The position numbers and the translations under genes were made by a program. From assembly GCA_019914995.1 (NCBI GenBank), contig CM034130.1, positions 10,106,001 to 10,170,000 on the forward strand: DNA of 64,000 nucleotides. Reading direction: 5' to 3'. Source of the DNA: Acanthochlamys bracteata (lineage: Eukaryota; Streptophyta; Magnoliopsida; Pandanales; Velloziaceae). The notes beneath the pieces were generated by a model. It did no database searches and had not been told where the DNA came from. It worked only from the letters and a program-made list of their open reading frames with translations. Shown piece after piece: positions 1 to 28,773 of this stretch (position 1 is the stretch's first letter; every line of letters begins with the position of its first letter).

Positions 1-413
1 TGAAGGGTTCAGAACATGGAAAAGGTGGAAGTTGGAGGCTTGAATCAGTAGTAACGTCCCAAAGGCAACAGCTTTCTGAGTTTTTGTCGCGAATCAGTAT
101 CCATCCTTGTGCTGACGGGTAATAATTTGAGGACCGCAATATCTTGTCTTCTTTCATTGCATATAACTTGTCATCGCGGAGGCTAAGGAAAGCATAGAAA
201 TCTCCGGAGCGACAAAAACCATAATAAAGAAGCCCCGGCGCGTTATACAGGATTAACGGTGGACTCGTGGTGTTAATGTGAAGGCACTTTGCTCCATAAC
301 ATATCTGTAACGTCGAAAAAAACTTTAAAAGTCGAACCTATTTAGTTAAACCGCATGTACAAAGAGATGCAAACCTTTTGCTTATCATGGCATTCATCGT
401 TGTCTGACGACAT
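1..413 (-). CDS. DUF295 protein, copy A (partial, runs off window start)
   Basis: This is the 5' part of a minus-strand DUF295 gene, almost identical to the complete copy at 18617-19700. Exon 1 (413-375) encodes MSSDNDECHDKQK and ends at a GT donor. Exon 2 starts at 337, after a TTTAACTAAATAG acceptor, and continues in frame with VRLLKF to the window edge. One visible difference from copy B is Phe for Leu just after VRLLKF. No F-box is encoded at the N-terminus, so it would be a DUF295-only protein. The function of such proteins is not established. It is head-to-head with the F-box gene at 1032, with about 0.6 kb between the start codons. Whether this copy is intact cannot be judged because its C-terminal part lies outside the window. 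Confidence 0.7.
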
Positions 414-1031
414 TGCTCCTCTTAGATTGGTGGTCTATATGAAAAATCTCTTCATGCGTGCAATTACTAGTTATTAATATATACAGCTCAAGTTCTGCTA
501 ATTCGAAGTTTGAAAGAATTTGGATTCTCTTTATCGACTTCAACAAAAAGAAAACTTTCTGTTTTCCTTATGAATTTTTAAAATTCTTCCCTTTTTCTAA
601 CTTTCTCTCTATAAACTATTTGATCTCTTAGTAAACACTGTATAGAAAGAAATACTACCGGGTGTACAATGGGGATTCACTTACTAGACTAATTGGTGCT
701 GGTGTATAATTAATGATATTTTGGAAAGACTCTGATCAATGAGAAATTCTAATTGATCCGAGAATGTTTATCATAAGAAGTTTGAGCTTTAATAAGTTTT
801 AATGTTTTAGTTGAATTAAAATTACTTAAATAATATTCTAACTAGGAAAGTCTCTTTTTAATAAGATTCTTAAAATTTTATGAGTCTATTCAAATAATTC
901 TATGTTCTATTCATATAATAAATCAAGAAAGATCAACTTTAAAAAGTTGGAGCTTTTTTTTACTCTGTTTTCTTTATTTTCATTACTGTTTTTCCTCTCA
1001 ATTCTCGTAGTCTAACAGCACTACTCTGTCA
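414..1031. promoter_or_regulatory. Shared intergenic/promoter region between divergent DUF295 and F-box genes, copy A
   Basis: This is an AT-rich 618-bp spacer between two divergent start codons. It is nearly base-for-base repeated at 19701-20320 in unit B, and part of it is found inverted in copy C (about 54041-54290). It must hold the promoters and 5' leaders of both genes. No single core element can be assigned with certainty. The pyrimidine-rich stretch just before the F-box ATG (about 955-1005) looks like a leader. Confidence 0.5.
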
Positions 1032-2282
1032 ATGGCAGCAAGTTCTTGGGCAGATCTGCCGCCGGAGATGATCGAACAGATAGCATCACGCGTCCCGTTA
1101 TCTGACATCCCCCGTTTTTCTGCTGTGTGCAGGGCATGGCGATCGGAATCCCCGGTTGCTTTTCCAGCAGACTACGGCCCTTTGCTCCTCCACTATGCAC
1201 GCCGAAAAGCCAATCCTTGCCGGTTCTACTACCCTTCTCTCAACAAGATCTTGGTCATCAGCTCCTTCAACCCCATATGCGATTTATCCGATACGGTGTT
1301 CCACTGTGCCATTGACGGATGGCTACTGGCTTCCCGAAGGAATTCCGAGTTCATCCTCGTCGACCCTCTGTCCAACGTACTGCACAAGATTCCTGACTTC
1401 AAGCCTCTTGAAACACCAATAATTTCCATGGGATTCGCAGACCCATCCCATTCGAAGGAGATCATTGTGATCGGCATGGCCTTTGGTATTGAGAATCACC
1501 AAGTTTATATATTCGCGTTCCACAACGGAGTCTGGTCAGATGGGTATTACAGTGACATCGACAGCGAGGAAGATTTCGCTGTTTCCCACTGTAGTCCTCT
1601 ATGGTATCGCAACCTCTTCTACGTCTTATCAGTTCAAGGAGATGTTGGAGTGTTTGATCCAGTGCTAAGAGTTTGGTCAATCCTTAAAATTCCTAACAAT
1701 CTACATTTGAGCATATTATCCCGAACCATTGCGCAACTTGTAGTTAAGGAGGAGGAACTCCTTTTGGTCCGCATGAGACTAGATGACGGTACCAAGATTG
1801 AAGTTATGAAGCTTGAAGAGCCAAACATGGAGTGGGTTAGGATCACCAGCATCGATGACTACACCATATACGCCGCAACTCCGACGGCTATAGTGGCGGC
1901 GATGCCCATTGCGTCCGCCATGAGGAACAAACTATGCGTTCCTAGGTTCTACGGAGACCCTGAGATGATCCAAGTAGAAGCAAAGTGGTCAGAAGGGCGG
2001 CTCTTTTTCGTCACAAGTGATCGGACGGTCAAAATGATCGTGAATGAAGATGGCATGCCGTACTACTCATTCAAAGACGATGAAGATGGCAGCCAGTACT
2101 GCTCATCAGAAGGCACCCAGTACCACTCATCAGAAGACGATGAAGATGGCAGCCAGTACCACTCATCAGAAGACGATGAAAACAATAGTTTTCAAAGGAA
2201 ATGGGATCCTAAATTCAGTGGCTCCAAAGCCTTGAGAAACCAACACATATGGTTTAGTGTTAGGAGAAACTGCAACTCCTAG
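1032..2282 (+). CDS. F-box/DUF295 protein, copy A
   Basis: This is a single-exon gene of 416 residues. Residues 6-40 form an F-box (WADLPPEMIEQIASRVPLSD, then a CRAWRS end), which binds SKP1 in SCF ubiquitin ligases. The rest is the DUF295/KIB-type beta-propeller-like domain, ending with EAKWSEGRLFFVTSDR and VNEDGMPYYSF. A tail of acidic-serine repeats (EDDEDGSQYHSS type) follows, then a basic C-terminus. By eye about 24 of 416 residues differ from copy B at 20321. The start is supported by all three copies sharing the MAASSWADLP start with a conserved leader upstream. Family role (known): substrate receptor of SCF complexes. The target is unknown. It shares a divergent promoter with the DUF295 gene to its left. 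Confidence 0.9.
   Translation: MAASSWADLPPEMIEQIASRVPLSDIPRFSAVCRAWRSESPVAFPADYGPLLLHYARRKANPCRFYYPSLNKILVISSFNPICDLSDTVFHCAIDGWLLASRRNSEFILVDPLSNVLHKIPDFKPLETPIISMGFADPSHSKEIIVIGMAFGIENHQVYIFAFHNGVWSDGYYSDIDSEEDFAVSHCSPLWYRNLFYVLSVQGDVGVFDPVLRVWSILKIPNNLHLSILSRTIAQLVVKEEELLLVRMRLDDGTKIEVMKLEEPNMEWVRITSIDDYTIYAATPTAIVAAMPIASAMRNKLCVPRFYGDPEMIQVEAKWSEGRLFFVTSDRTVKMIVNEDGMPYYSFKDDEDGSQYCSSEGTQYHSSEDDEDGSQYHSSEDDENNSFQRKWDPKFSGSKALRNQHIWFSVRRNCNS
2045..2190 (+). repeat. 36-bp coding minisatellite (acidic-Ser repeat) in F-box copy A
   Basis: Tandem units encode EDDEDGSQYHSS-like 12-mers near the protein C-terminus. Copy A and copy B each have two clear units plus a degenerate one. The inverted copy C has one more perfect unit, so the array has changed length since duplication. 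Confidence 0.75.
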
Positions 2283-4125
2283 ATTATGATGATTGATAGA
2301 GTTTAGACAATCATCCGTCTAATGTACCGACTAATAACAGAGATTTAATCCACTTCAATTCCGGGAGCTTGAAAGATACAGGGCAAACTACTGAGTAGGA
2401 TGAGCAACCAATTTTTCCAAACATGAATGTTCTTGATTAAGTTAGCCTTGACGTCATTGAATATGCAACATCATACTTTGCAAAACTAACTTCCACAATC
2501 ATTTGCAAACTTCTAGCTGTCTCAAAGTTTGCAATAACTACGTAACTGAGCAAAACAACACTTTTGCAACAGCAGATTATATACAAGTGAGTGAAAGTGG
2601 AACCTCTTGTTCAAACTTCGGTATGTTGTTCCTTTAATTGATAAGCATGAAACAAATGTTTTGGCCATTTATGTAGAGACATGCCTCGCAATCAATTCTT
2701 CCAACCCTAAATTTGAACCTTGAAAAGATTGAAAAGTTAGGCCTAAATATAGACCAGTAGTTGTAAGAAGACAAATTTTCACTGCTCGATTGATCATCAC
2801 CTATTCAGTGATGTTTCTACACAGCAGGCCTGAACTGAAAGTTCTTCGGATTGAATACATTACAATTTTCAAATTCATTTCAAACGAAATATAAAGAAAA
2901 CAATCTTCATAGTTTCCGTTTTGAAAACCTGATTGGAACATAACATAGTGGAAAATTTTGGCAACTGAAGCTAATAAGATCATCATCAGAAAGGAATACA
3001 TTCTTCTCATCCACAGCAACCGCAATGGATAACTGTGTAGGAAGGTGTCCTAAGATTATTATCCCAAACGCATCACCTGATGATCAAATCCATAATATTA
3101 GTACTAGATTATTAAAAGAACAAGAAAACAAAATACAGATGAGATTCAGTAGCAAATTGAATAGATTCGTCACTGCAGCACATAAAAATGTGCATCAGTC
3201 CTAAGTGTTGGAATACTATTGCAATCACCTCATCATCATCGCTCCAATAAAATTGATATATAATAAAACAAAACAGAAATTGAAAAATCTATGTAGTTTA
3301 ATCGAATTTAGTAATTGAATGAGCTGAAGAACAAAGAGCAAGAGTTGGCGATTTTGTGAAATCTGCATGTTTTCCTCAACTTGAAGAATCAGAAGATGGA
3401 GCGCCTAGTCCTCGTCACATTTCTTTGTAACTTCACAAAACAAACCATCAATACCAAAAAAAAAAAAACAGCGAACCTGTTCTTGTCAGGAAATCTCGAT
3501 CTCAAAACAGAAGAACGACAAAGTGAATAGAAATTACTGAATATCCATCTCAGAGGAAAAAAATGGAAAAACTTATAATAAATTGAAAAGAAAAAACAAA
3601 AAAGGTAGGAAGAGATTAAGGCTCAGGTTAAAGGGGGCTGTCGATACGGGATCCCTGAAATCCGATCTGTTGAGATTGAAATTTCAAATTCATCACAGCT
3701 ACAAGCAGAAAGAGAACCGGAGATATGGGTGTGAGGCTTTCTCTTTTCAAAGCTCCGTAACCACTACCGGAACTGGTACTGGTGCCTATTCGTCATTGGT
3801 GACAGCGTAGGAATTGCAGTGGTAGAGTAGTAGGACTGGCGACGGCGGTTGTAGTACTGACAACGGCGGTTGTAGGACAGTCCAATATAATCAGTAATTA
3901 ATAATCATTATAAATCACTAAATAATTTATTATATATAATTATAATTTATATAATATTAAACTAATTGTGATTATTAAAAAAGGGCCGTGGCCCAAAATA
4001 AAACTCGAGCCCATATGAAAAACCAACCGTATAAATTTTTTTCCCATTCATCTTCTTCTAAAATTTTTCTAAAGTTTTTCATCTTCTGCTGCTGTTGCTA
4101 TAGCTCAATCCAATACTTACAAAAA
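2283..4125. other. 3' flank of F-box copy A with a decayed minus-strand gene copy
   Basis: This is non-coding in its present form. The minus strand at about 2,800-3,430 carries blocks matching the more intact minus-strand reading frames of unit B (22288-23340). Here the block starting near 3,430 has an in-frame TAG soon after its acceptor. The downstream block loses the B frame after SCQ and stops early, so this copy looks dead. The rest (3,430-4,125) is the AT-rich leader region of the tiny gene at 4126. The same segment is present inverted at about 51,230-52,750. Confidence 0.5.
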
Positions 4126-7100
4126 ATGACAACTAAAATGGAAAGGAAAGCAATTCTTCGGATGAAAGAAAAATCAAAAGGCTACTGTAGCAGATATAAG
4201 AAATTTCTTCCGACATTCGGCGATGTGCTCAGGCATGGCGATTACTGTCCTTGCGGAGGAAAACTTTCCCAAGCCAACCAAGGTATGTTTATAGGTATTT
4301 CATTCCAAAACATTTCATAGATATTTTTTTTATCTAGCTACATTGTACATCTGTCTGTGCTGCAGTGAAGGAGAAAAATGCTTCCGGAAAGAAGAACGTC
4401 TCAGGGAAGAACAAAGCTGGTACGTAGCGACCCAAACAATAGATGGATTTTAATCTTCAAAACAATTTTGGTATTAGTGTTCATTTGCACAAACCCACAA
4501 AAATTAAACCCAGAAAGTTAAACCTAGGATCTTCAAAATGATATAAGAAATTTAATCCTCATTAACTTGAGATTAAGAATACCAGTCTCTTGATTTTAGT
4601 CGTTGGGCTTGAATTTCCTTTTCTTATTTGCAGCCTTTCTTTCCTATGCCAACTTTCATCAACCCACTTGCTTTAATATCCTTCTGGACATGCTTAGTAT
4701 CTCCATTTGAGATGTTCTCTTTAGCACCCTGACCATCAGTCATATCAGACGATGCTTGTTTCTGTTGTGAAAGTTTAGATGTTCCAGGTGTTGGTTTCGT
4801 ATTGCTTATCACGCAATAGAAAAAAAACTTATAAGTTTGCGAAATTCCAGGCAATCAAATATGAGTACTACACCCATTGATCTGCAACCTTGAATCTTGA
4901 AGAACATAGGAATTTGCAACTATTTCTAACATGATGACAAGGCATCAATCATATGAAGAGGGGCTTTAAGCTTTTTACTCATAAGACAATCTGTGAAAAA
5001 ATAGCTATCCATTTTAATGCCTTCTCAAAACGCCTAAGTATTTGCAGACGCGCACGCATTAGTTTACCTTTGCAACAAAGTAACCATCCATGTTATTCAC
5101 ATGGGGATAAAAGCGTCTAGTCTTCTCCAGTGATGTATGAAAACGGTGCTCCCTGAAACGTATAAAACTGTAAACAACGAGTCAGTATTGGTACAGAAAT
5201 GTCTGTGAAAGTCTACATGAAATTCACAATCTTAAACCCTGGCCTTCCAAAGTCCAATCCACAGGGGACAAGCTGGACATCTCTCTTTTTCAGTGCATAA
5301 TCTACGATAGCCTCATTCTGCAAACCGAAAAAACAGTACTGAGAAGACTGAAACATGGACCACTAAATAATTTGATTATCCACAAACCTCGTCAACCATC
5401 AATGAGCAAGTTGAGTAGACTATGTAGCCCCCCGTCTTTGAATTAGCATCCACCAAGTCGTTCGCAGCCAAAATTAGTTGCTGAAAGACAGTAAATTCAG
5501 ACTGCTTCTTGTCAAGTACAAAACATTAGGTGGAATTAGCTTGGGTCCTCTATGACCCAAAACCCTATAGAAATTCCCTAACTATATCAAATATTGCATT
5601 AGATCCATCTGTTAAATTTCACCTTTACTTGTCCCTATAAATACTCAAAAGATTGCTTGAATACATCTCATCCCTTGATTAGATTACTAATCGATTTCTA
5701 CCCAAAGTGCTACATAACTTGTATCTCATAACTTGTTCATAACCACCTCTATCTCAACATAAGGTCCTTGTTACATCTTTGATTCTTACGACTTCTAAAC
5801 TTTTAGGAGTACTTATCATCAAATATACTAAAATGCAGAAGAAAACCATCTGCTGTTTGGTTTAGTTAGAGAGCTTTCAGAAACAGAATAGAAATTGTCT
5901 AACAATTAAATTTGACTTAACATTTAGATAATCTTCTTTTGAAAATAATTAAATCTTCGATGAATAAACAAATCCATGTGATGTTCAATAGAAGTACATA
6001 TGTAACAAAGTTGGACCTTCTGCAGGAAAACACAGTTCTTGATATCTTCGGCATTCTTGGAAGTTTTGATCATTTTGTCACCAGATATAACCTTAGGAGC
6101 AAGAAAATGAGCAAGTTTAGCATCAAAAGTGGCGGTAATATGCATTGTAAGAAGACAGGAACATCTAGCTAACCCCTGTCCCACTGCATGGGGCATCCAA
6201 AAGCACTCGATCCATGGTGTTGAGGCCCAGAATCTTTGGTAGCTGCATTGCACAAAACAATGCTCACATACAATGCATCAGCAGCTTGTTCTACTTTGAT
6301 AATAAAAAACCATCATGGGGAAATCAAGGCGTTTTTATATTCCATAGCAACCAAAAAATATTGCGGGTATTTATACAGGGAACAATGTCATAAGAAAATA
6401 CACATGTACATATAACAACTTGGAGAAAAGAACAGCACAGTGTCACAATTGTATAATAGAAGGTCTCACAAATACTAACTTCTGTTTACCGAAAGTTTCT
6501 TCTTAATTAACTTGAAACATATTGGACCAAGACTCAGTAGTTTGCCAAATTATGAATTGTGCTAAGATAAGTTTAGTGTTAATTTCAATTATGCAGTGGC
6601 AAGAAAAAAACTATGTTGCTGACCCGACGTGATGGTCTAATGCTTTGTTATTTGCAGCCTTTTGTTGATTTAATTATAAGAGAAATCAGTTGTAGTTTTC
6701 CTAAAACCACATTTTGCTTGCCACTACGTATGTGAAGCTCTAAACTCCATTCGCTTGCCCCTCCTCCTCCCACTAGAGAGAGCTTCCTACCACAACATCA
6801 AATTTCCATATCCTAACAATAGTGGTAGCCTTGATGTCCAGCTATTTTTTCTGTATGTGAAGCCAGACGTGCTCGTCCTTCATCATCCAGACCTAGTAGC
6901 TGATATGGCAAGCAAACTGGCTGCTGACAGCTAGGAACCTGTGTGAGCAAGATAGCTTTACCATGGCAGTCAAGTTTGTAGGCAGTGAGAAATAATCAGA
7001 TATCAGATTCTTAGATCAAACTAGACTAAGAGGCCGCCATGTTACAATTGCAGCTGCCTGTCCAAGCATTTGCCGCCAAACCAAAAAATGGTTAGTAAGG

Positions 7101-10100
7101 GTTAACAATGCTCTTCAGAGGTTCTTGCCATCTTCACTGGTGAGGCGGGATGACAACGTAACAGCAGTTCATGAAAAAGATGGAGCTAAATGACGTCTCC
7201 GTAAATTCACTTGAGATGTGGCCTGAATTGGAAGCGCCATGACATTCTTCAACATAGTGACATGGTCGTGCAAGAACCAATTATAAAGCATATCTTTTTG
7301 AGTCTTTGGGACGCATAAAGATCACATTTCACTAATAGTAGTGGTGGGGGAACAATTAGTTGGAAGAGACTGGTAAAATGTCAAGAAAGTAAAAGTTATC
7401 ATTTTAATACAACAGATGCACAAGGATTCACTCCATAACTGTCACAACACTTCTTTGATTAAGGAGATGAAAGACAAGATAACCATATATTGAGTCGGTT
7501 TGCGTCCAATATATTCATAGCTAAAAGATCTAAGGAACCTTTTGCTTCAAGGTTTTTATGCCTACGAACTGGAATGAGAATGATTTGTTTTGTTACTTGT
7601 TACGACTGGCAACTAACCCCACTACTTATTTGTCCTTCGATTCATCGTATAATAATACATTTACTTGAAAGTTTAAAAGATTCCCACTAGTGTCTTGGCA
7701 TACCAAACCTTCAATGGGTATTCACATCACCATTATGATTCCATCGTTAATGCTTTCGATACTGATACAACTCTATAAGTAAGCACTACCTATAATGTGG
7801 CATTACCATCCTTCTTCTCAATGTTCATACGAAAATAATTGGAAGACCAAAATTATTTTTAAAAATGTATTTGTCCACTTATTTGAGATCGTCTAACTTT
7901 TTCCCTGCAAAGCTAAGAAAATCATAAGGAATTAGAGGACCATCATACAACTCTACTCATAGGTCAAACTACACCTTGTACTCTCATTTGAACCGAAGTA
8001 AAATGAAAAGTTTCAAGGAAAGAAAGCAAATAGTTTTAATAAGGCCACAAGATACAAAAGCACTAAAAGAAGTCATAAATGAACAACAAAAGACATGCTA
8101 TTCAGAGAGTCTTGAGAATTAACCTCCTTGCCATCATAGTTGCAGACAATGGCATTCGTGACTCCTAGCCTATTTATATTGGATGATAGTGCCTTGAGCC
8201 GTTTTTCTTTAAAATCGTTAGCATAAATTATTCCTGCACATCATGAAGAAAATCTCATGTCAACAACAAAGAAACGTATGAGAACAGGTAAGTCAAATAA
8301 TATAAATGAATTCCTCAAAAAGGGTCCTTGTCGCCAATCAAACCTAGTGTGATGAGATAAGCATTGGTTGAAGAGAAAAATGAAGAAAAATTAAAGCGGC
8401 CCCTTCAATTCTACAAGCAAGATGCATGAATTGGACAACTAAGTATTAAGTTAAATGATAAAGACCATCCATTAGCATTACTAAGGATATGTTGCTTCAT
8501 GCAAAGTGGCAGGCCCATACAGTGGGTTTGAGCAAAGTCTCAACGTAACGTTGTTTTGATATCTCAAAAGGCTAATAAAAGTTACACACACTCTAGGTCT
8601 TCATCTAAAACCTAAACTCAGTGCTACCAACTAATAATCCCTTTTGGATCTTCCTAGTATTCTAACTTATACAACATCACTTTTTAATTTCAACTAGGAT
8701 TTGTCAACCCCTACGTAGCCTAGTGGTTTGACACCTCCTTCCCTCATAAGAGGTTGTGGGTTTCAACTTCTCAGCATTGCAATGTCGGTTGTTATTGACA
8801 CCAAAAAGTAATAGAAGCTATAATAATAAATTAAAATTAAATATAAAAAAATTAATTATAAAACTAGGATTTTGTTTAGCTTTTGACAGAGTTTCAAGTG
8901 TCTCCACTGACTGAAGCATAAAGTCAATTTCTTTCCATGTTCAATTGTTGGGTGCTAGTTCACATATTTAGGACAGTTCAGTTATCAAAAAGCTGGTTTT
9001 GTTTATATTAATTTTGGAATACAGCCCCTTCGGACCCAGTACTCAAACCTTACAGTGACCCATTTAGATCCCTACCAATGATGGTAGCACCGCTCTACAA
9101 CAATTGACTAGCCCCTAATTGTTCCTCACACTTCTCAGCAGGCCTTGCAATCAAGTAAAGAATGTATCTGAATCGTGACTGCAGGTTGGCCAAACTAGTC
9201 ACGTGTGCATCAATACTTGAACTGTTTAAGCAACCACTCTTCTCTTTTCTCTCTATTTTGTTATCCACTTATCCTTATTTTACCCTTCTCTTCTCATAAT
9301 TAATGTCCACATTCATTGGTGGTAGCGGATTACAAGTAATTAACTACATAGTAGTAATCATCAGTAAACGATTGCATCAGATCAGTTACACTGATTCATG
9401 CTATATAAAAACTACATCAGATCCTAGAATAGGAAAAAAATATCAGAGAAACAACTTATGGACAAGAAATTTCAACATGGTCCAGGCATTAGATATTTTA
9501 GACTAATACTGTTGTGAAGAATGAAGAAGACACAGTACTGAAGAACTCTTACCAGTATTTCTCATAAGAGCTGCAATATATGTCGTCTTACCACCAGGAG
9601 CAGCTCTGCAATTAATACATTAACTTCAGATAAACAAGATGTATAGCCACTAAATATTGCTAGACAAAGTCACCACAAACATTTAATGATAAAATAGCTG
9701 TGTACCTATTTAGGAAAATAGCTTGCCTAGTTCCTATAGCAGTTCAATAAAAGGAATGCCATTCACAGTCTTGAAAATCCACGGAAAACCATTTTTATTG
9801 CTAAGTACTTTATAAATCATAAAGAGCCTCTACACAACATCCTCCAGATCATAATCCTCTGCACACTGAACCATATGAAACGAAAAAGACATGATAGTGC
9901 CAATTAATATTAACATTCAATTGTTTTCTTTAAAGATGAGTAACATCTGCTAATATTCATATTTTCTATTATTTTAAGGCACTGAAAAGTTTGTAATTGA
10001 TGAATTAGTTTGTCATAAACTTCAAGGTTCATTAATCTTTCTAGTTTAAACTACACAAGCAAAAATATGTTATTATCTAATATTCCAAATTGCTAGACAT

Positions 10101-10913
10101 GCAGCACAAAGAACGAACCTAGCAAACTGAACTAGCCTACAATATGCTTTTCCAATAAAAAAAGGACCTATTAATATTATCCACTACTCCCAAAACTTGC
10201 ACACCAAATAAAGGCAGTCCAACCAGGCTAAAAATTATTTCCTTGTTAAAGGATGAGACTAAATATAGTTATGCCTCATTGCATTAACAAGGGGCATGCA
10301 CCTAACTGCCACCGAAATTTCTTGTCCTTAAATTGCCAAAGTTCTGAATTTTAAGTATTACATGTACAAATAATACTAGTAGTTAGTAAACAAGAAACGA
10401 AAATTCTTGGACCCCTTCTCGGTCTAAGATTGAGAAAACAAAGCAAAAACTTCTTTTTAGATATACATAATAAAATAACTTACGCCATATCCACAACCCG
10501 CTCCTTTTCTTGAGGTGCAAGAGCCATGACAGGTAGGAAAGAGCTTGCACCTTGGAGCTGCATATAAAAAAAAGCATTACATATAAAATCCTCAAGCAGC
10601 ATATTGAAGACGAAATATTGAGAGGACTAGATTTGGAAAAGTATGCATACCATGTAGTGTCCAGCCAGGTATTCAGGTGTTGCACCAACAGGAACTCGTG
10701 ATTCATACACTACAAGTCCAACCTACCAGTTGTAACATTTTCAGTTAAACCCCTGAAGGTATATAGGAAAAAAATACGCAGTCAAAACAAAAAGGTTACC
10801 TTCGACCACTTGCCAACAGGATCTAGGTTGACTCCTCTATTTATCAAAGTACCAGCTAGGTCCCACCTACGTGTCTAAACAATGGAAATAAAAAAGCAGA
10901 AGATAGATTATAA

Positions 10914-10949
<36 letters not shown>

Positions 10950-16190: not shown

Positions 16191-16524
16191 TAGAATGAAG
16201 TCACTAATATATCAACGGCGACTTTTGGTGCATGAGGTTAGAGGAACCAGCGTAGAAGTGTTTTTTAGGGTTTTCAATTATATCTATTGCTCATAACCAA
16301 AACGCTTCAAACTACAAGTTTCATACCTTCAAAATAAATTCCGAATTAATAAAAGCACACCGATTTAGAATTTTAGCTGATTTAGAATTTGTAGCCCGAC
16401 GCATCGGCATGTGGGATTTTATTAAATTGGGGCCGATAAATTGAACGATAGCAAACGAAGAATGCCAAAAAGAAATGATAGGATCGATACTAGAATAGAG
16501 CACAATAACAAAAACAAGAGTAGT

Positions 16525-16750
16525 AAAGAAGGCATTTGAGAATTTTTATGAAATAAAATTTTTTTAAAATAAAAAATATTTTTATTTTTTTAAAAAATAA
16601 ATTTTATTTTTTAATTTTTAAAATAATAATAATAATATACAATAAATTTCATAAAATTTTTTAATATTTTTTAAATTTTTAAATAAATTTTATATATATT
16701 TATAAATTAAAAAAATTAAAATAATTTTTTGAACGCTCAAACAAACGCGC
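16525..16750. mobile_element. Probable MITE family 1 relative (unit A only)
   Basis: An AT-rich segment beginning GGCATTTGAGAATTTTTATG and ending GCTCAAACAAACGCGC. It is missing from the matching place in unit B (about 27,290). The ends are only roughly inverted, so the boundaries are approximate. Confidence 0.4.
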
Positions 16751-17196
16751 TCGAAATCAGAGAAAGAGAGTAAGAACGGAGCGAAGCGGTGGGAGATCAA
16801 ATGAAATAAGAACTTAAAAAATGAGTACATTAGAGAATTTATATATTATTATAATTTTGCTAATTTATTGAAGACAATATTAGCATTTTATAACCTCGGC
16901 GAGAAAAGCTCTGTATAGTTTTTTTTAAAAAGCACAGTATAAAAGTTTTTTTCAACTATGAAACTTGAAAGCAACCATAAGTTGCTTTTAATGAACTGTT
17001 TGAAAGTATTTATAAAAATAAAATTTTGTAAAATAAAAAATAATTTTATCTTATTTTGATAAACATAGTTTATTATTTTAATATAAAATATTAAAAATAA
17101 ATAATAAAATTTTTTATTTAATAGAATATTTTGATATTTTAGTTTTTAAATAAATTCTATAAACTATTATAAAAAATTTAAAAATTTTTTAATAAA

Positions 17197-17272
17197 TTAT
17201 GAAGCTGCGGGATTCTTTCCTCCATACTTCGTCAAAACACCAGTTACAGAAGCCCTCTCCCTTACCTTCAAC
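17197..17272 (-). pseudogene. Orphan terminal exon, copy A (truncated at duplication breakpoint)
   Basis: After a CATTCAG acceptor the minus strand reads LKVRERASVTGVLTKYGGKN, then PAAS and stop. Unit B has the same exon with four base changes in the shared part, three of them synonymous in this frame, which supports a real coding exon. The parent gene was not recognised. Similarity between units ends about 220 bp upstream (17,495), so the other exons were left behind at the breakpoint. Confidence 0.5.
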
Positions 17273-17494
17273 CTGAATGACAAGAGTGCAAATATGAGAA
17301 ACAAAATTTTTAAGCAGCTGCTATTATTTTAGAATTCGATTCCTGATTGTGATTAGACACGTTATACCTGCTCATTGAAGCAGGTAAAATTTTCTTTTAC
17401 TTCGACTTTATTCTGTATATTTCTTTCCTTACTTTGACCTTATATATATTAAATTGACAAATAAAATCAACAGTAACTGCTGCATTATTATAAG

Positions 17495-18616
17495 CAGAAT
17501 CCAATTGTTGTTGTACAATAATTTTTAATATAAATGCATGTATTTTCTGAAATAAATACCAAATTGGTTTTAGCGTATATTAATTTCTTGTGCTAAAGCT
17601 ACGTGCACATGATCCAATTATTATCCAAGTTGCTAACGCCATCTTCTCCGGTATTTCATGTATGGAACCAATATTGTTCCAATAGATGAAACACTACTTT
17701 ACATAACGAATTAAAAAAATTTTTTAAAATCAATTCATTATGGGACTAAAAATTTTTTAATACCTCGCAATAATGACAAAATATAGGCTTCGTCCATCTA
17801 GCAACAGTAGGGCACACCAATCACAATAGTCAATGGCAAGGATTGATTCTGATTGGCATGAAGCCAGAGATCCTGTGCAGCGCATTAATTGGACAGAGGG
17901 TTTAGGAATTCCTTCAAGAAGCCAGCAGATCTGTCTTTGCTTGGCACCGAGGAAAACCATATAGGAAGATCGCACGTGGCGTTAAAAGAGTTGCACCGGC
18001 GTTACGTTTTCGGATAGTATATTGCATGAGCAAGGGGCAGTAGTCTGCAGGAAATTAACACGACCGGTTGATTCCGATATACATGCGTATAGTCTGCATA
18101 ACTATAAACTCATGATATACATGTTTATTGTTTACTAAATTAGACATATATGAAGAAAGAAACTTTGGAATAAGTTGAGAATCCAAGTTCTCTTCAAATT
18201 TTAATCAAGGTAGAACATTAATGAAGTATGGCGTTGCAATAGGGGTTTCTACCTGAAAAGAAACTACCATCATATTTTATTCAAGCAACTACAGATGCAG
18301 GTTTGATTGATAAAATCATAACAAATAATTAAGAGCTCCACTTTAAACATAAGCTAAATTCATTCTGAAGCACTTTGCACATGAACTATTGCGGAACTTG
18401 CATAATCATTTGTAACTTCAAACTGTTTCAAAGTATATATCTAGCATTGCCTGAAACTTGCAGTAGATTATAACAGGCATATATATAGCTGAAATTCAAA
18501 AAAATTAAAAAGCAATCCTTAATTTAAAGATAAGCAACTTCAATTCCACCTCTGAACAGATGTGCCCATGCAGGAGAAGGTAATAAACTAGTAGGTTCAG
18601 TGAACAGAAAAACTCC
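17495..18616. other. Spacer between units A and B with an F-box relic
   Basis: Contains the junction of the tandem duplication near 17,495 and an F-box/DUF295 relic (listed separately). Otherwise AT-rich and without an open gene. The part 18,230-18,616 (3' flank of the DUF295 gene) recurs inverted at 54,443-54,830. Confidence 0.5.
17757..18100 (-). pseudogene. F-box/DUF295 relic
   Basis: The minus strand keeps fragments resembling the F-box genes: CGGAATC...CCGGT...GCAGACTACTGCCCCTTGCTC near 18,010-18,060 (compare CGGAATCCCCGGTTGCTTTTCCAGCAG in the intact genes), then GAAGGAATTCC and a CTCTGTCCA-like segment. It also resembles the relic at 54995-55375 (SxxGSLAS... and QxSILA- like stretches). 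Scrambled by deletions, with no function expected. Confidence 0.55.
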
Positions 18617-19700
18617 TTAACATTTGGGAATAAACCAACACTGCGGCACCACTGGTGGAATACAAGGGCAAGAATCACGACGGAGAATAGTATCCTTCTC
18701 TAAGTCTAACACATACAATCCAAAGTCGAATCTCTCTTTATAGTAGATGCAATTGCCCTTCACACCCAACTCTTCGTTTGCTCGCCATGACGCAGAGACA
18801 AAGCAATCCAGAAAGAATGCTCTATCTCCGATAGTGTCCACCTCGTTCCATACTTTGCTCGGCAAATCCAGCTTGTAAATTCCAATATCAGACACAATCT
18901 TCGTCGCGCCAAGATAACTAGTAAAAACGAGAAATATATCACCGCAAGATTCCACCATTCTTTTCCTTGTTCCGAATTCGCTTTCTGATGGCCTTTCCAC
19001 ATGAAGGTTTGTCAGAGTCAATTTTTTCGACCTACCATCATCATTATCATGAAATTGCGCGAGGTATAAGTCTTTCTTCGTAGAAAGTGCATAAAGATTT
19101 CCGTCGCAAACAACTAAATCTTGTAGACTATCACCCCCATCGAGAGCGATCCTTCGATCTTCGAAGGTCCAAGAAGAGTCGTTCGGATGACAGTAAAACA
19201 AATAGCCGCGTCTTAAATCCGCGCAAACGACCAACCAGTGCTCAGATGTACTTGAAGTAGATGGATTGAACATTAAGAGCAGCTTGGTGAAGGGTTCAGA
19301 ACATGGAAAAGGAGGAAGTTGGAGGCTTGAATCAGTAGTAACGTCCCAAAGGCAACAGCTTTCTGAGTTTTTGTCGCGAATCAGTATCCATCCTTGTGCT
19401 GACGGGTAATAATTTGAGGACCGCAATATCTTGTCTTCTTTCATTGCATATAACTTGTCATCGCGGAGGCTAAGGAAAGCATAGAAATCTCCGGAGCGAC
19501 AAAAACCATAATAAAGAAGCCCCGGCGCGTTATACAGGATTAACGGTGGACTCGTGGTGTTAATGTGAAGGCACTTTGCTCCATAACATATCTGTAACGT
19601 CGACAAAAACTTTAAAAGTCGAACCTATTTAGTTAAACCGCATGTACAAAGAGATGCAAACCTTTTGCTTATCATGGCATTCATCGTTGTCTGACGACAT
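18617..19700 (-). CDS. DUF295 protein, copy B (complete)
   Basis: Two exons on the minus strand. Exon 1 (19700-19662) encodes MSSDNDECHDKQK and ends at GT. Exon 2 (19624-18617) opens after TTTAACTAAATAG and reads VRLLKFLSTLQICYGAK and on, for 348 residues in all. The body is a DUF295/KIB-type beta-propeller-like domain (GWILIRDKNSESCCLWDV, WLVVCADLRRGYLFYC, DLVVCDGNLYALS, IYKLDLPSKVWNEVD, ending CWFIPKC). No N-terminal F-box is encoded, unlike its neighbour. It would therefore not act as an SCF adaptor by itself. The start is chosen because exon 1 splices in frame; an ORF scan alone would begin at a TTG inside exon 2. It is head-to-head with the F-box gene at 20321. Its biochemical role is unknown. 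Confidence 0.85.
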
Positions 19701-20320
19701 TGCTCCTCTTAGATTGGTGGTCTATATGAAAAATCTCTTCATGCGTGCAATTACTAGTTATTAATATATACAGCTCAAGTTCTGCTAATTCGAAGTTTGA
19801 AAGAATTTGGATTCTCTGTATCGACTTCAACAAAAAGAAAACTTTCTGTTTTCCTTATGAATTTTTAAAATTCTTCCCTTTTTCTAACTTTCTCTCTATA
19901 AACTATTTGATCTCTTAGTAAACACTGTATAGAAAGAAATACTACCGGGTGTACAATGGGGATTCACTTACTGGACTAATTGGTGCTGGTGTATAGTTAA
20001 TGATATTTTGGAAAGACTCTGATCAATGAGAAATTCTAATTGATCCGAGAATGTTTATCATAAGAAGTTTGAGCTTTAATAAGTTTTAATGTTTTATTTG
20101 AATTAAAATTACTTAAATAATATTCTAACTAGGAAAGTCTCTTTTTAATAAGATTCTTAAAAATTTTATGAGTCTATTCAAATAATTCTATGTTCTATTC
20201 TTATTATAAATCAAGAAAGAACAACTTTAAAAAGTTGGAGCTTTTTTTACTCTGTTTTCTTTATTTTCATTACTGTTTTTCCTCTCAATTCTGTCGTAGT
20301 CTAACAGCACTACTCTGTCA
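19701..20320. promoter_or_regulatory. Shared intergenic/promoter region, copy B
   Basis: A 620-bp AT-rich spacer between divergent start codons, the direct repeat of 414-1031. Conservation of the whole block in A and B, and partly in C, is consistent with the two genes having been duplicated as a pair with their regulatory DNA. Confidence 0.5.
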
Positions 20321-21571
20321 ATGGCAGCAAGTTCTTGGGCAGATCTGCCGCCGGAGATGATCGAACAGATAGCATCACGCGTCCCGTTATCTGACATCCC
20401 CCGTTTTTCTGCTGTGTGCAGGGCATGGCGATCGGAATCCCCGGTTGCTTTTCCAGCAGACTACGGCCCTTTGCTCCTCCACTATGCACGCCGAAAAGCC
20501 AATCCTTGCTGGTTCTACTACCCTTTTCTCAACAAGATCTTGGTAATCTGCTCCTTCAACCCCATATGCGATTTATCCGATACGGTTTTCCACTGTGCCA
20601 TTGACGGATGGCTACTGGCTTCCCGAGGGAATTCCGAGTTCATCCTCGTCGACCCTCTGTCCAACGTACTGAACAAGATCCCTGACTTCAAGCCTCTTGA
20701 AACACCAATAATTGCCATGGGATTCGCAGACCCATCCCATTCGAAGGAGATCATTGTGATCGGCATGGCCTTTGGTATTGAGAATCACCAAGTTTATATA
20801 TTCGCGTTCCACAACGGAGTCTGGTCAGATGGGTATTACAGTGACATCGACAGCGAGGAAGATTTCGCTGTTTCCCACTGTAGTCCTCTATGGTATCGCA
20901 ACCTCTTCTACATCTTATCAGTTCAAGGAGATGTTGGAGTGTTTGATCCAGTGCTAAGAGTTTTGTCAATCCTTAAAATTCCTAACAATCTACGCTTGCG
21001 CATATTATCCCGAACCACTGCGCAACTTGTAGTTAAGGAGGAGGAACTCCTTTTGATCCGCATGAGACTAGATGACGGTACCAAGATTGAGATTATGAAG
21101 CTTGATGAGCCAAACATGGAGTGGGTTAGGATCACCAGCATCAATGACTACACCATATACGCCGCAACTCCGACGGCTATAGTGGCGGCGATGCCCATTG
21201 CATCCGCCGTGAGGAATAAACTATGCGTTCCTAGGTTCTACGGAGACCCTGAGATGATCCAAGTAGAAGCAAAGTGGTCAGAAGGGCGGCTCTTTTTCGT
21301 CACAAGTGATCGGTCTGTCAAAATGATCGTGAATGAAGATGGCATGCCGTACTACTCATTCAAAGACGATGAAGATGGCAGCCAGTGTTGCTCATCAGAC
21401 GGCACCCAGTTCTACTCATCAGAAGACGATGAAGATGGCAGCCAGTACCACTCATCAGAAGACGATGAAGGCAATAGTTTTCAAAGGAAATGGGATCCTA
21501 AATTCAGTGGCTCCAAAGCCTTGAGAAACCAACACATATGGTTTAGTGTTAGGAAAAACTGCAACTCTTAG
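20321..21571 (+). CDS. F-box/DUF295 protein, copy B
   Basis: An intact single-exon paralogue of the gene at 1032, also 416 residues. It has the same N-terminal F-box (residues 6-40), DUF295 region and acidic-serine C-terminal repeats. Differences from copy A include Arg-to-Trp (NPCWFYYP), several conservative Ile/Val exchanges, and Cys and Phe within the repeat tail. No frameshift or premature stop is visible, so both A and B could be functional SCF substrate receptors. The target is unknown. Confidence 0.9.
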   Translation: MAASSWADLPPEMIEQIASRVPLSDIPRFSAVCRAWRSESPVAFPADYGPLLLHYARRKANPCWFYYPFLNKILVICSFNPICDLSDTVFHCAIDGWLLASRGNSEFILVDPLSNVLNKIPDFKPLETPIIAMGFADPSHSKEIIVIGMAFGIENHQVYIFAFHNGVWSDGYYSDIDSEEDFAVSHCSPLWYRNLFYILSVQGDVGVFDPVLRVLSILKIPNNLRLRILSRTTAQLVVKEEELLLIRMRLDDGTKIEIMKLDEPNMEWVRITSINDYTIYAATPTAIVAAMPIASAVRNKLCVPRFYGDPEMIQVEAKWSEGRLFFVTSDRSVKMIVNEDGMPYYSFKDDEDGSQCCSSDGTQFYSSEDDEDGSQYHSSEDDEGNSFQRKWDPKFSGSKALRNQHIWFSVRKNCNS

Positions 21572-22287
21572 ATTATGATGATTGATATAGTTTAGACAAT
21601 CATCCGTCTAATGTATCGTAACAACAGAGATTTAATCCTCTTCAATTCCGTGAGCTTGAAAGATGCAGGGCAAACTACTGAGTAGGATGAGCAATCAATA
21701 TTTCCAGAACATGAAAGTCCTTGATTAACTTATCTTTGACGTCCTTGAATATGCAACATCATACTTTGCAGAACTAACTTCCACAATCATTTGCAAACGT
21801 CTAGCTCTCTCAAAGTTTGCAATAACTATAATTTTCGGTATGTTCTACGACATAACATCCTATTGATCGGATGTAGTAATGTGGATGTGCCATGTAACCG
21901 TGATATAACTCAGTAACTGAGCAAAACAACATTTTTGCAACAGCAGATTATTTACAAGTGAGTGAAAGTGGAATATCCTGTTCAAACTTCAGTATGTTGT
22001 TTCTTTAATTGAAAAACATGAGACAAATGTTTTGGCCATTTATGTAGAGACATGCCTCGCAATCAATTCAACCCTAAATTTCAACCCTTGAAAAGTTTTA
22101 AAAGTTGGGCCTAAATAGAGACCAGTAGTTGTAAGAAGACAACATTTCACTGCTCAATTGATCATCACCTATTCAGTGAAGTTTTCACACGGCAGGCCTG
22201 AAGTGAAAGTTCTTTGGACTGAATACATTACAATTTTCAAAACTATACAGTAAAGTTTCTAGACAGCAGGCCTGAACTGAAAGTTCT
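21572..22287. other. 3' flank of F-box copy B
   Basis: No gene seen. It aligns with 2283-2,850 of unit A but has about 70 bp extra near 21,835-21,905 that copy A lacks and copy C keeps (inverted, about 52,435-52,515). A GCAGGCCTGAA segment is duplicated near 22,195 and 22,267. Confidence 0.5.
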
Positions 22288-23340
22288 TCAGATTGAATAC
22301 ACTACAATACTCAAATTCATTTCAAACGGAATATAAAGAGAACAATCTTCATAGTTTCCGTTTTGAAAAATCCTGATTGGAACATAACGAAGTGGAAATA
22401 AAATTTGGCAACTGAAACTAATAAGATCATCATCAGCAAGGAATACATTCTTCTCATCCATAGCAACCGCAATGGAACACTGTGTAGGAAGGTGTCCTAA
22501 GATTATTATCCCAAACTCATCACCTGATGATATAAAACCATAATATTAGTATTAGATTATTAAAAAAACAAAAAAAGAGAACACAGATGAGATTCAGTAA
22601 AAAACATAAAAATATGCATCACTCCAAGTGTTGGAATACTATTGCAATCACCTCATCATCATCGTTCCAATAAAATTGATATATAATAAAATTGAACAGA
22701 AACTGAAAAATGTATCTAATTTAATCGAATTCAGTAATTGAATGAGCTGAAGAACAAAGTGCAGAGTTGGCGATATTGTGAAATCTGCCAGCTAATTTTT
22801 CCTCAACTTGAATCAGAAGAATGAGCGCCTGATCCTCGTCCCATTTCTTTGTAACTTCACAAAACACACACCATCCACAAAGGAAAAAAAAAAAAAAAAA
22901 AAAAAAAAGCGAATCTGTTCTTGTAGCGAAATCTCGATCTCAAACAAAAGAACAACAAAGTGAATAGAAATTACAGAATATCCATCTCAGAGGAAAAAAA
23001 TGAAAAAACTTATAAATTGAAAAGAAAAAATAAGAAAGGTAGGGAGAGATTAAGGCTCAGGTCATAAGGGGACTGTCGACACAGCTACATCTCACCAAAT
23101 CAAGACGACGAAATCAACTGCAAATTTCAAGCGAACGATTAATGACATTAAACTCTCAACATCAATTCTAAAATCTGAAAGCGTCTTGCAAAATTGAACA
23201 GTAAATAAGAAGAGATCGGACGAAGAAGAGAGAAAACGAACGAAAACAGAGTTGTTGAAAAGAACCAAAAAAAGCTATTGAAAGAGAGAGAAAGAGAACT
23301 GTGTTACCTCATAATGCTCCGCGCAGCCGTCATTCTTCAT
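22288..23340 (-). CDS. Unrecognised multi-exon gene, copy B
   Basis: The minus strand holds separate open blocks with splice-like borders. The first is exon 1 (23340-23308) MKNDGCAEHYE, ending GAG/GTAACA. Another starts at 22846 after ACAAAG and reads KWDEDQALILLIQVEEKLAG. A possible block near 22,690-22,640 reads YWNDDDEVIAIVFQHL. The terminal exon (22523-22288) reads DEFGIIILGHLPTQ, then CSIAVAMDEKNVFLADDD and ...NLSIVVYSI before the stop. The first two blocks join in phase. The join to the last exon is not resolved. In copies A and C the KWDEDQ block has an in-frame TAG and the last exon is truncated, so only B looks intact. No family was recognised. It is convergent with the F-box gene. 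Confidence 0.4.
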
Positions 23341-23560
23341 TGGCGACGGCGGCGCTAGGAATTGCAGCGTTAGAGTTACAGTAGTAGGACTGACGACGAT
23401 AACATCGTATAACAATCCCACTGCTTAATGTATTAATTTAATAATTAAATAATCATAATAAATTACGAGCTTATATATATGTGTGTGAGAAAACAATTTC
23501 TGCTCATCCATCTTAGTTTAAAATTTTTCACCTTCCGCTCAATTCAATACTTACAAAAAA

Positions 23561-24330
23561 ATGACAACTAAAATGGAAAGAAAAGCAATTCTTCGGATGG
23601 AAGAAAATTCAGATGGTTACTGTAGCAGAGATAAGAAATTCCTTAAGACATTCGGCGATGTGCTTAGGCATGGCAATTACTGTGCTTGCGGAGGACAACT
23701 TTCCCAAGCCAGCCAAGGTATGTGTATAATGTACTTCATTCAAAAAAAATTCATAGACATTTTTTGTTAATCTAGCTATATTGGACATCATTCTGTGCTG
23801 CAGAGAAGAACAAAAATACTTCAGAAAAAAAAATGTCTCCGGGAAGAATAAAACTGGTACGTAGCTTAACGGGATATTCTATTGTTAACATAAATTAGAG
23901 CAAGCCAAACAATAGATGGCTTTTTAATCTTCAAGACATTTTGGTATTTGTGTCCATTTGCACAAATCCACAAAAATTAATCTCAGAAAGTTAAATCTAA
24001 AATTCATCACCTTCACTTTTATCACATTTCAAAAGTTCTCTAAAATAAATTTCAACTTTACAGTCAACCATGGTCGTGATTCACTGCTATATCACCAGCT
24101 AAACAAATTGCATCCGTAAGGCTGAGTGGTTTTACTAACGCCATATAATGATGCTGGTTCTTTTTTCTAATCCTTGTATTGATGCGTGTTCTTTACTAAC
24201 ACCGTTATTTAGTGGTAGTACTAGTAAATACAAAAGGCATTTTTCTGATATTTCTAACAACTGTCGTCTATTTCTTTTGTTTTTCTCTCCTTTGCAGCTG
24301 CTGTTTGAAGACAGGACTTGCCAAGCTTAG
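23561..24330 (+). CDS. Tiny Cys-motif gene, copy B
   Basis: Three blocks with clean splice signals: 23561-23717, 23804-23856 and 24298-24330. Together they give an 80-residue protein that starts [15 protein letters not shown], has the [20 protein letters not shown] segment followed by YCACGGQLSQ, and ends LLFEDRTCQA. Not a recognised family. The paired Cys residues could bind metal (inference). Relative to copy A, exon 2 differs by one base in length, so the two copies end in different frames and at least one is probably broken. Expression is unproven. Confidence 0.4.
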
Positions 24331-27300
24331 GTTATGCTAGTTATGATTTGCTCTTACTTGTTATGTTAAGACTTCTACTAGCTAGTAGGTGACCATACTT
24401 TTATTTAAATAGCATGCTAGTACTTGTTATGCTACGTAATTTTTGAAGTTTACAAGAAGTATTAGATATAAACAAATTTGAGAAGAACTTTCTATTGCAG
24501 GAAAACCCATAGAAATTAAGACAGTTAATATTAAGGACATGATAAATGTTTTGAAGGTAAATCTTTTTTTAAGCTGAGTTATTAAGTAGTTATGAGTAAA
24601 TTATTCGAAATCATTGGAAAGTAATTTTTTAAAGAAAAATTTATTTTGAAGTTACTTTCTGTAAACTAAATAAGCACTAATTGGGATGAAATTGTTGAAA
24701 GAAAACATTTCAATTTTAACTTAATTCCTTTCATATTATTGTATGATGATTCAGGGTGCATTTGGAATTGCTTATGAAATGAAGTTTTTGTGAAATGGAA
24801 GGTATTTTTGTCTTTTTTAGAAAACGAGCTATATTTTTTTTATTTCAAAAAAAATAATAAAAATATGTAATAAAAAGATCTCACTTCGTAGAATTTTTTT
24901 ACATTTTTTAAATTTTTAAATAAATTTTTTATATACTTATAAAATATGTATTAAAAAATATAAAATAGAGAAAAGTTAAGAAAAGTTGATAAGTAGCTTA
25001 TAAAACGCACCGACTAACGGATCCTCAGTCGGCTTCCTACTTGACTTTTCAAATATACACAAAACTGGCTGTAAAACTAACAGATGATGAACAGCAGCTT
25101 TCTACTAAATAAAAAATTTATCAAACAGTCATCACATTTGCAAATAGCAAATAAATAATCACATAAAAGAAATTGTATGTTATAATATATATATATATAT
25201 TACTATTTTTAAAGTAAAAATATAAATTCATCATTCAGAAAGCTTCCAAATAATATTTTTTTTTAAAAACTCTTTATTTAAATCCCAAACGAACCAAAAT
25301 TCTGGTAAGTGTATGTGATTTATTTCGGTTTTGTTAAAATAACTACTACATACGCTATGGGAGCTTCAAAGACCATTAGAAGGCTACAAAAGGAAATGCC
25401 TTCTATAGGTTTCATTGCAGGAAAACCTATTGAAGGCTTAAAAACACATCCAGAAACAGAGCACACATAAAAAGAAAAATCTTTTGCCCCCATCCTCCCG
25501 TCCAAGGAAAAAAAAACTAAAGCCTTTAGGAACAAAATTTGAATAGATCCTAAGATTTAGACTGCAGGAAAATATGATGTTATACATAGAAAACACTAAT
25601 CAAATCTTATAACAATGAACTTCATCATGAAAAGAATAATGAAAAAAAATCTCAAAATAAGTCTTTAAAATAAAACATCAAACAAAATTACTTAAACACA
25701 TCAATGAATGAACCTACCTGTCCTGTTTGAAATAGAAAAATACATTGACATGTAGCAAGGATCATGATCTCATATGACCTTCTCCAAATAAACATGTCTA
25801 GAAACATAACACAGCTTTCTTCCTTTGATCTTCTCATGCATTTGCAACATAGACAAAATTTTTTTCAATTTATTCTAATTTCTCTTTTTTTTCCCTCGGG
25901 TTGGAGATACGGAGCAGATGATGAGGCGCCGAGAAGGAAAGAAGAAGATGAGAAGATCAAAGTACAAAAAAAAAAAAAACCTTTCACTCGGTGCCGCCGT
26001 TCAAACATTACTGAGTAATTCAACCGGATCGGTTCCATCAGAGCCGTTAATTTGTAATCTAACATGACTTGGTAAAAGCCGTTCCATCAGAGCCGTTCAA
26101 ATTAGAATTCCGGATCTACAACTTTACAAAAAAAGCCTCGCGCTCACGTTAATTTGCGTAAAATCCGGTGATTATAATAAAATAAATGAGTGAGTAATTT
26201 AATAAACAATTAATTAATTAATTACTCTCGATGTCTTGCCTAACGCACTAGAGCTATTAATTATGGAAATAAATTCACAAGGGTGGTTCACAGTTCATCT
26301 TTAAAACTATTATTTCCAGACAGGCCTTCAAACTTCGTTTATGGCTAGTATAAACCCTGTTAGAAGTAAATGTAGCGTACGGATCATATATTCATATATA
26401 AGATGTTTCTCTTTTAGGGACGCTCTAATCAAAAATAATTTTTTGCACTCCAATCAAAAAGTAAATGAGCGAGGCGTGTGGCCGTCTTGTGTTTTATACA
26501 AAATTCAAAACAAAACCAGTTTTAATATTTTAAAAAGAATTTTAAATTTCACGGATGTGGAATCACTTCAAATGCATTAGCACACCAAATAAATGAATAC
26601 CACATGTACGATACATACATATTATATATTAAGCGTGCGTTTAATCATCACCTAAATTTTACTTTTTTTCAATTTCATTTTTAATATAAAATAATAAATA
26701 ATTTAGAATAAATTTTTTTATCAAAACCTTATTTTCAAATTTTAATTTTAAAACTTACTATTAATACAAAATAAAATATAAATTTATTTTTTTATTAAAT
26801 ATTTTTAATTTTTATAACTCATTTAAAAAAAGAGTTTATCTTAAAATAAATACATCCTAAATCTAAATCTTTAAATCACATTCAATTATTTAAATTTAAT
26901 TGGACAAATTTTATATTATTTATAAATCACAAAATTTACTCTAAATATTTACGGTACAGCAGAATGAAGTCATTGAATATATCAACCGCGACTTTTGGTG
27001 CATGAGGTTAGAGGAACCAGCGTAGACGTGTTTTTAGTGTTTTCAATTATATATATTGCTCATAACCAAAAGTATTCAAACTAGAAGTGATTCATACCTT
27101 CAAAATAAATTCCGAACTAATAAAAGCACGCCGATTGTTAAAATTTTGGCCGATTTAAAATTTACAGCCCGACTCGTCGGCGTGCTGGCCTTTACCAAAT
27201 TGACGCTGATAGAATAAACTGTAGCGAACGAAGAATGCTAAAAAGAAATGATAGGATCGATGCTAGGATAGAGAACAATCGCAAAAGGATGAGGAGCGAA

Positions 27301-28401
27301 ATCATGAAAACGAGAGAGAGAGAGAGAGAAACGCGAAATGATGGGAGATGGAATGAAATGAAAAATAAAAAAATAAGTACATTAGAGAATATATATATAA
27401 TATTATAATTTTACTAATTACTGTAGATAATATGAGTATTTTATAATTCCGGAGAGAAAAGCTCTATACGGTTTTTTAAAAAAAGCACCGTATAAAAATA
27501 TTTTTTCACTATTGAAACTTGAAAACAACTGTGAGTGGCTTTTAAAGAACTATTTGAAAGTGCTTATAAAAAAAAATTTATTGCATAAAATTTTTTTATA
27601 TTTTTAAATAAATTTGGTAAACTATGTAAAAATTTGTTAAAAAATATAAAATAAAAAAATTGATAAGTAATGTTTCTGAAATGAAAATCCAAACGGTTCC
27701 TAATCAAGATCATCCAAATAGTTTAGTCACTGTTATTTATTTTTTTTCACTTAAAAAGTTCAAAAAAAGTACTAGCAAACGGGCCTTCAAATGTCTTGTT
27801 TATATGTGATGATGGGCCTTAGCTAGCCGACTTCAAATCTTCTGGTGCCCGATCAAGTAGACCGAATTGAATATTCACATCATTTATTCATAAAACTTAT
27901 TTTATATTAACCAACTAATTTTATTTAAAACTTATTTTTTATATTAACCAGCATATAAACAAGACAATATTCTCTACGAGAGCTTTTCGGTTTGCAGATC
28001 TAAGATTTATTTCTTATAAATTGCTTTTACATTTATTGCATGGATGATGGTGATCTGTTAGAAAGCTGCTTGCCATCCATTCTTCACAATTTGGTGCAAA
28101 ACCTATGTAAATGGATGCATTTGAAGCTCAGAAGGAAGCACAGAGCGAAAGTTATGGCACTCAAAATATAAACTTATACATGTCAGTATTTTAAAATGCA
28201 ATACCTTGAATCCATTAGGTACTCTATGATATTATCTTAGTGATTGCTTATTGGTTAACCAGTGTAACACTCACTTGCATAGGATATAAAACAGCATACA
28301 AATCATGTTTCAAATATCTCTACGGTAAAACATCCGGACACAAGATAATATCATGCGTAGACTTGTACCATGTACACCACAGAACGAATACGTTTCAAAT
28401 A
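24331..28401. other. Long AT-rich spacer of unit B
   Basis: No convincing gene. It aligns with about 13,660-17,200 of unit A. It contains a MITE at 24754-25011 that unit A lacks, a (GA)n run near 27,306-27,328, and A/T homopolymer tracts. The segment 27,705-28,400 has no counterpart in unit A. Confidence 0.5.
24754..25011. mobile_element. MITE family 1 copy (unit B only)
   Basis: A 258-bp AT-rich element running from GGGTGCATTTGGAATTGC to AAAACGCACC, closely similar to 15937-16190 and to 50313-50584 in reverse. Unit A has the uninterrupted site (GGTTCAGTTGGCTGCC near 14,115). A TCA flanks both sides (before the left end and just after a short GACTAACGGATCC tail). Confidence 0.65.
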
Positions 28402-28549
28402 TCAAAGTCCCACCAAGACAAAGAAAAAATCATCTGAACATTGATGAAATGTGGACATGCATCGGCCATAGTTAGAAGAAGCTGCAGGATTCTTTCCTCC
28501 ATACTTTGTCAAAACGCCAGTTACAGCAGCCCTCTCCCTTACCTTCAAC
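28402..28549 (-). pseudogene. Orphan terminal exon, copy B
   Basis: After a CATTCAG acceptor the minus strand reads LKVRERAAVTGVLTKYGGKN, then PAASSNYGRCMSTF and on to a stop. Copy A ends earlier because of a deletion. The parent gene was not recognised and its upstream exons are missing on both units beyond the breakpoint (about 28,773), so it is listed as a gene fragment. Confidence 0.5.
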
Positions 28550-28773
28550 CTGAATGACAGAGTGCAAATATGAGAAACAAAATTTTTAAGTAGCTGCTAT
28601 TATTTTAGAATTCGATTCCTGATTGTGATTAGACACGTTATAGCTGCCCATTGAAGCAGGTAAACTTTGCTTTTACTTCGACTTTATTCTGTATATTTCT
28701 TTCCTTACTTTGACCTTATATATATTAAATTGACAAATAAAATCAACAGTAACTGCTGCATTATTATAAGCAC

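Follow-up and report, generated by a model that had tools for sequence, protein, structure and literature searches.

A unit of a tandem F-box duplication in Acanthochlamys bracteata carries a truncated copy of a NOP2 gene that its neighboring unit lacks, and we consider it likely that two events lie behind this arrangement: a tandem duplication of the F-box stretch and a separate copying of NOP2 sequence from contig C20 into one unit, A, by break repair. The window, i.e. the whole stretch of DNA that was analyzed, is 64,000 nucleotides long (G000:C5:10106001-10170000), its frames read as flowering-plant genes, and the genome searched comprises 195.5 Mb in 557 contigs; positions without a contig name are those of the window, with negative numbers lying to its left. 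In the history that we propose, ~11.3 kb with F-box genes of the KIB1-4 type would have been duplicated in tandem at a 4-bp common word, AGCA, and the resulting units, A and B, would then have diverged unevenly, probably with gene conversion in which an inverted third copy, C, also took part. In a separate event, A would have received ~8.1 kb of the C20 NOP2 gene, introns included and reversed in orientation, as a copy most likely made during repair of a double-strand break from ectopic templates, with synthesis-dependent strand annealing or polymerase-theta-like end joining as candidate routes; the outcome would be filler at both edges and a dead NOP2 copy truncated at its 5' and 3' ends. The direction, from C20 to C5, is strongly indicated, and we place moderate confidence in break repair as the mechanism.

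Gene movement by break repair is a known kind of event in plants, and we regard the case described here as one more instance of it, that is, as ordinary plant gene shuffling. What makes the case attractive is that one genome supplies the unfilled site (in the tandem pair), the donor (on C20), and the pre-duplication layout (on C3), such that "insertion or deletion" becomes a datable case.

Two abutting units and an inverted third copy

A tandem duplication with asymmetric content had been proposed in a preliminary description of this DNA, and self-comparison of the window, the check that was suggested there, bears it out. Collinear blocks pair A 1-3647 with B 19288-23082, 4103-4526 with 23537-23999, 13111-13218 with 24015-24122, 13430-14113 with 24118-24754, 14110-15938 with 25025-26967, and 17201-17523 with 28478-28796; the E-value is ≤5e-28 for every block, and the collinearity is thus far beyond chance. 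As in a tandem segmental duplication, the units are homologous, head to tail, and abutting. Unit A (1..17497, forward strand) has its first ~1.8 kb to the left of the window, from C5:10104206, and unit B (17493..28773, forward strand) directly abuts it. The start of B had been put at ~19,290 because the window edge hid the left part of A. It moves to ~17,493: in the genome search, C5:10104206-10106013 has 96% identity to window 17,493-19,300, position 1 pairs with 19,288, and -1794..-2 matches 17,493-19,285, so the units abut at ~17,493-17,497. The right ends given previously (~17,495 for A and 28,773 for B) agree with the alignment, in which A ~17,497 is equivalent to B ~28,773, and the duplicated unit is ~11.3 kb long (B: 17,497-28,773). 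When the aligned letters at the left flank of A (...AACTAGCAGAATCC), at the A/B junction (...TTATAAGCAGAATCC), and at the right end of B (...TTATAAGCACGTAC) are compared, AGCA is found to be common to both unit ends, and we infer that the units were joined through microhomology, not by recombination between long repeats.

Each unit has a gene with a 417-aa open frame (1029..2282 in A and 20318..21571 in B, both on the forward strand), and both proteins score above the cut-offs for PF00646 and PF03478, i.e. F-box plus KIB1-4 beta-propeller. Another frame of B (18617..19624, reverse strand) has a KIB1-4 beta-propeller with no F-box match; its A counterpart, from -670 to 337, spans the left edge of the window. 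This KIB1-4-only frame is nearly unchanged between the units (4 synonymous and 2 other differences), and the F-box gene has 10 synonymous and 24 other differences. Copy C (51252..54873, reverse strand) is inverted with respect to A and B; in it, the counterpart of A -1111..-516 runs straight into that of A 797-3701, ~1.3 kb being missing (an internal loss of -515..796 of A). Relative to A, the F-box frame of C is missing one base at each of two places and differs in length by 36 bp. Among A, B, and C, the F-box coding part differs by only 1.8-2.8% (2.2-3.1% at third positions), whereas upstream, C is 10-15% different from A and B in two of the three stretches compared, a contrast that suggests gene conversion. 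Local tandem copies, one pseudogenized copy, and signs of gene conversion are also what is known from tandem duplication of plant F-box (KIB1-4/DUF295) genes; the sole difference here is the asymmetric insertion.

Divergence between A and B is very uneven: 0.4-1.8% over -1375..1621, up to 3.8-8.5% over 1622-3445, and 8.0, 13.5, 11.1, 8.0, and 7.8% beside the NOP2 block (106/1326, 57/423, 12/108, 51/634, and 112/1428). Near the right end, the counts are 9/199 and 2/108; 16,754-17,104 gives 78/343, but this stretch is an AT-rich repeat. We attribute this unevenness, with moderate confidence, to gene conversion among A, B, and C; the alternative source would be a duplication between two diverged haplotypes. 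Additionally, ~450 bp are poorly alignable (A 3,648-4,102 vs B 23,083-23,536), and since A and C agree over the first ~50 bp of this stretch, B is probably the changed copy. AT-rich, MITE-like repeats of ~200-250 bp are scattered in the window (24755-25024, 50331-50577, 35662-35888, and others).

A truncated NOP2 copy and its relative on C20

The ~8.6-kb block that had been assigned to A alone spans 4527-13110, within a few bases of the limits first given. Most of it (4600..12725, reverse strand) is a truncated NOP2 copy with exons 2-15 and most of exon 16, matching C20:1759115-1750553 in two collinear pieces, introns included, at 95.1% and 96.2% identity (20 and 139 mismatches, gaps apart). 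The C20 gene (1750090-1759161) has 16 exons, GT-AG borders, and an unbroken 591-aa frame; its protein scores 322.9 bits against NCBIfam TIGR00446 (NOL1/NOP2/sun; cut-off 210.45) and has its best PDB matches in NOP2 chains, over query residues 30-518 (8fkt_SY), 6-520 (8esq_q), 12-568 (6elz_q), and 4-520 (8i9r_CP), which we take to be human-type, fission-yeast-type, budding-yeast-type, and fungal, respectively. This gene is a full-length relative of NOP2/NSUN1, the 25S rRNA cytosine-C5 methyltransferase. On C20, a tandem duplication of ~295 bp (1750290-1750680) has doubled the 3' part of NOP2 exon 1, and the window copy starts inside the second repeat.

The copy in the window differs from a full-length NOP2 in being truncated and frameshifted. 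It begins within intron 1, exon 1 and the start codon being absent, and ends 46 bases short of the coding end, the last ~14 codons and the stop being absent as well. Exon 2 has a frameshifting 1-bp loss and exon 16 a frameshifting 4-bp gain, intron 12 lacks 427 bp, the acceptor of exon 16 is gone with an 11-bp loss, and there is no complete open reading frame. In other words, the "whole NOP2-like gene" of the preliminary description is a fragment, and its truncation, frameshifts, and lost acceptor rule out a second functional NOP2 in A; gene prediction here could list this pseudogene as a second NOP2 gene. Between the block and C20, differences occupy 159 of 6599 positions in introns and other sequence (2.4%) and 20 of 1455 in exons, and the coding stretches compared have 10 synonymous and 10 amino-acid-changing differences.

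Is there another NOP2 in the genome? A 342-aa NOP2 query gives 24 matches among the best candidates scored, of which 11 are on C20, 11 on C5 (the block), and one each on C14 and C7, the last two being weak (27-28 bits). A Pfam search of the genome, again among the best candidates scored, gives 8 matches on C14, C9, C7, C19, C5, and C20; those on C14, C9, and C7 are 31-68% like the C20 NOP2, a figure for the tblastn-aligned pieces only, and the C19 candidate (L019) has no match to the C20 NOP2 by tblastn. Thus, among the best candidates scored in both searches, the only complete NOP2 found is that of C20. It is very unlikely, in our view, that the reverse-oriented copy is transcribed from the adjacent F-box promoters and tunes this C20 gene through antisense or small RNA; if true, a repair scar would have turned into a regulator of ribosome assembly.

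Filler DNA and the proposed route into A

Judged by sequence, the pattern at the block edges looks like that of break repair, perhaps with template switching. Between the NOP2 copy and the left flank lie 73 bp of filler (4527..4599) that match neither B nor C20 and for which the genome search finds only the filler itself, with no second match that could mark a donor. The filler at the right edge (12726..13110, 385 bp) is in neither B nor C20; part of it is 78% like C7:9213288-9213515, a second collinear piece is 74% like C7, and the genome search finds no exact donor, the 78% match being the nearest. Within the right filler, the 20-bp word TATGTTACATGGAGGGCATA forms a direct repeat whose second member lies at the right end, on the border with the target DNA; a repeat of at least this length arose in 0 of 1000 shuffles. 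The 10-mer TCAAAATGAT is common to the left filler and the right junction, which is modest evidence (10 of 2000 shuffles). In B, the sequences that flank the block in A are contiguous at 24000..24014 (forward strand). The donor is genomic and contains introns (C20:1750553-1759115), and the edge stretches compared, of ~50-126 bp, have neither a target-site duplication (longest common word 5) nor a terminal inverted repeat (longest 7).

Retained introns, as in DNA-level capture, non-NOP2 sequence at both edges, and a distant relative of the right filler on C7 would also suit a transposon (Helitron, Pack-MULE, or similar) that captured the NOP2 segment and inserted into A. We consider this route unlikely, and less likely than break repair, given that the stretches tested have no inverted repeat and no target-site duplication and that the genome search shows neither filler to be multicopy. 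That search, the edge comparison, and an inspection for Helitron ends by eye found no element termini and no other copies with the same ends.

For break repair, there is a precedent; Wicker et al. (2010, Genome Res 20:1229) reportedly described plant genes that move when double-strand breaks are repaired with ectopic filler. The likeness between such movement and the present case lies in an intron-containing segment at a non-collinear site, a truncated pseudogene, filler, and the absence of the transposon hallmarks tested; what differs here is the target, which is one of two tandemly duplicated F-box units, and that the searches return no exact filler donors. Passages in two papers name both transposons and break repair with filler DNA as movers of plant genes and gene fragments, the moved sequences often being pseudogenes (PMC3445842, PMC4274372), and passages in a third describe interchromosomal gene duplication as frequent in wheat (PMC4563886).

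Insertion, deletion, and the order of events

Could A and B be two haplotypes that the assembler set side by side, with the NOP2 insertion being allelic? A false duplication would give the same abutting structure, and the outer unit ends are nearly identical, as alleles might be; however, a divergence of 7.8-13.5% over ~4 kb, together with several repeat differences, is large for alleles, the inverted relative C shows that there are real paralogues here, and the units meet cleanly at a 4-bp microhomology. We therefore regard an assembly of this kind as quite improbable.

With A and B taken as true duplicates, the preliminary description offered two choices, an insertion into A after duplication or a deletion from B. 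An insertion in the A lineage fits, and a deletion from B does not, for three reasons. First, the C20 gene is complete, and the copy in A is cut within the gene at both ends. Second, a collinear segment on C3 is without NOP2 at this place: the collinearity of C3:719-769 kb extends over both flanks, from about -27 kb to +49.7 kb of the window region, NOP2 has no sequence match on that stretch, and no more than ~5.4 kb separate an F-box-like match that runs to 753,591 from 748,160-746,619 (= window 29,255-30,778). Third, the introns of the block and of C20 are 2.4% apart, as against 7.8-13.5% between A and B beside the block. A block that was ancestral to the duplication and was later deleted from B would leave A and B flanks that line up on either side of it, as they do, and a recent duplication is conceivable in that the outer parts of A and B (0.4-1.9%) are less different than the block and C20. 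Beyond the divergence, truncation, and C3 layout, on which we reject the deletion, neither block nor filler has left a remnant in B at 24000-24014, and we judge an ancestral block to be very improbable. The C3 segment (G000:C3:719001-769000) is paralogous to, and collinear with, the window region plus its left flank, and it probably stems from an old whole-genome duplication. Copy C gives no verdict between the two choices, since it stops at ~51,252, short of the block.

Of the first choice, the insertion thus stands, and the words "after duplication" can be held with moderate confidence; because the outer parts, at a divergence of only 0.4-1.9%, speak against a simple clock, the order of duplication and then insertion is one that we infer. 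If the age of the duplication is to be read from these low-divergence outer parts, the insertion could be the earlier event, e.g. as an allelic difference. Similarly, had the duplication taken place between two diverged haplotypes, the insertion would be older than the tandem duplication, yet it would lie in the A lineage, with no loss from B. Retroposition of NOP2 mRNA, which would account for the new location and nothing more, has next to no probability and is refuted by the introns, through which the copy is collinear with C20.

The units differ in a second place, ~0.8 kb that had been described as kept by B and lost from A. The sequence is indeed present in B alone, at 27659..28477 (forward strand), and holds dispersed-repeat sequence: B 27,600-28,520 has at least 46 genome matches, with the best 40 of 186 candidates scored, many of these matches falling on the initial ~100 bases, and among the matches listed its middle has relatives on C12 (81%) and C15 (76-85%). 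Overlapping its right border is a ~280-bp gene-fragment-like sequence (28425..28703) related to C16:5665450-5665735 (88.9%), the A counterpart of which, 17199-17427, is without the first ~50 bp. Since C16 matches B in one piece across the border and matches A only from 17,199, a loss of at least ~50 bp from A is probable there; for a loss of the whole ~0.8 kb the support is weak, and the rest may be an insertion into B. Viewed by eye, the frames of the C16 sequence resemble part of an RNA-binding-protein gene, and 28425-28703 and 17199-17427 look like another captured gene fragment, one that both units possess.
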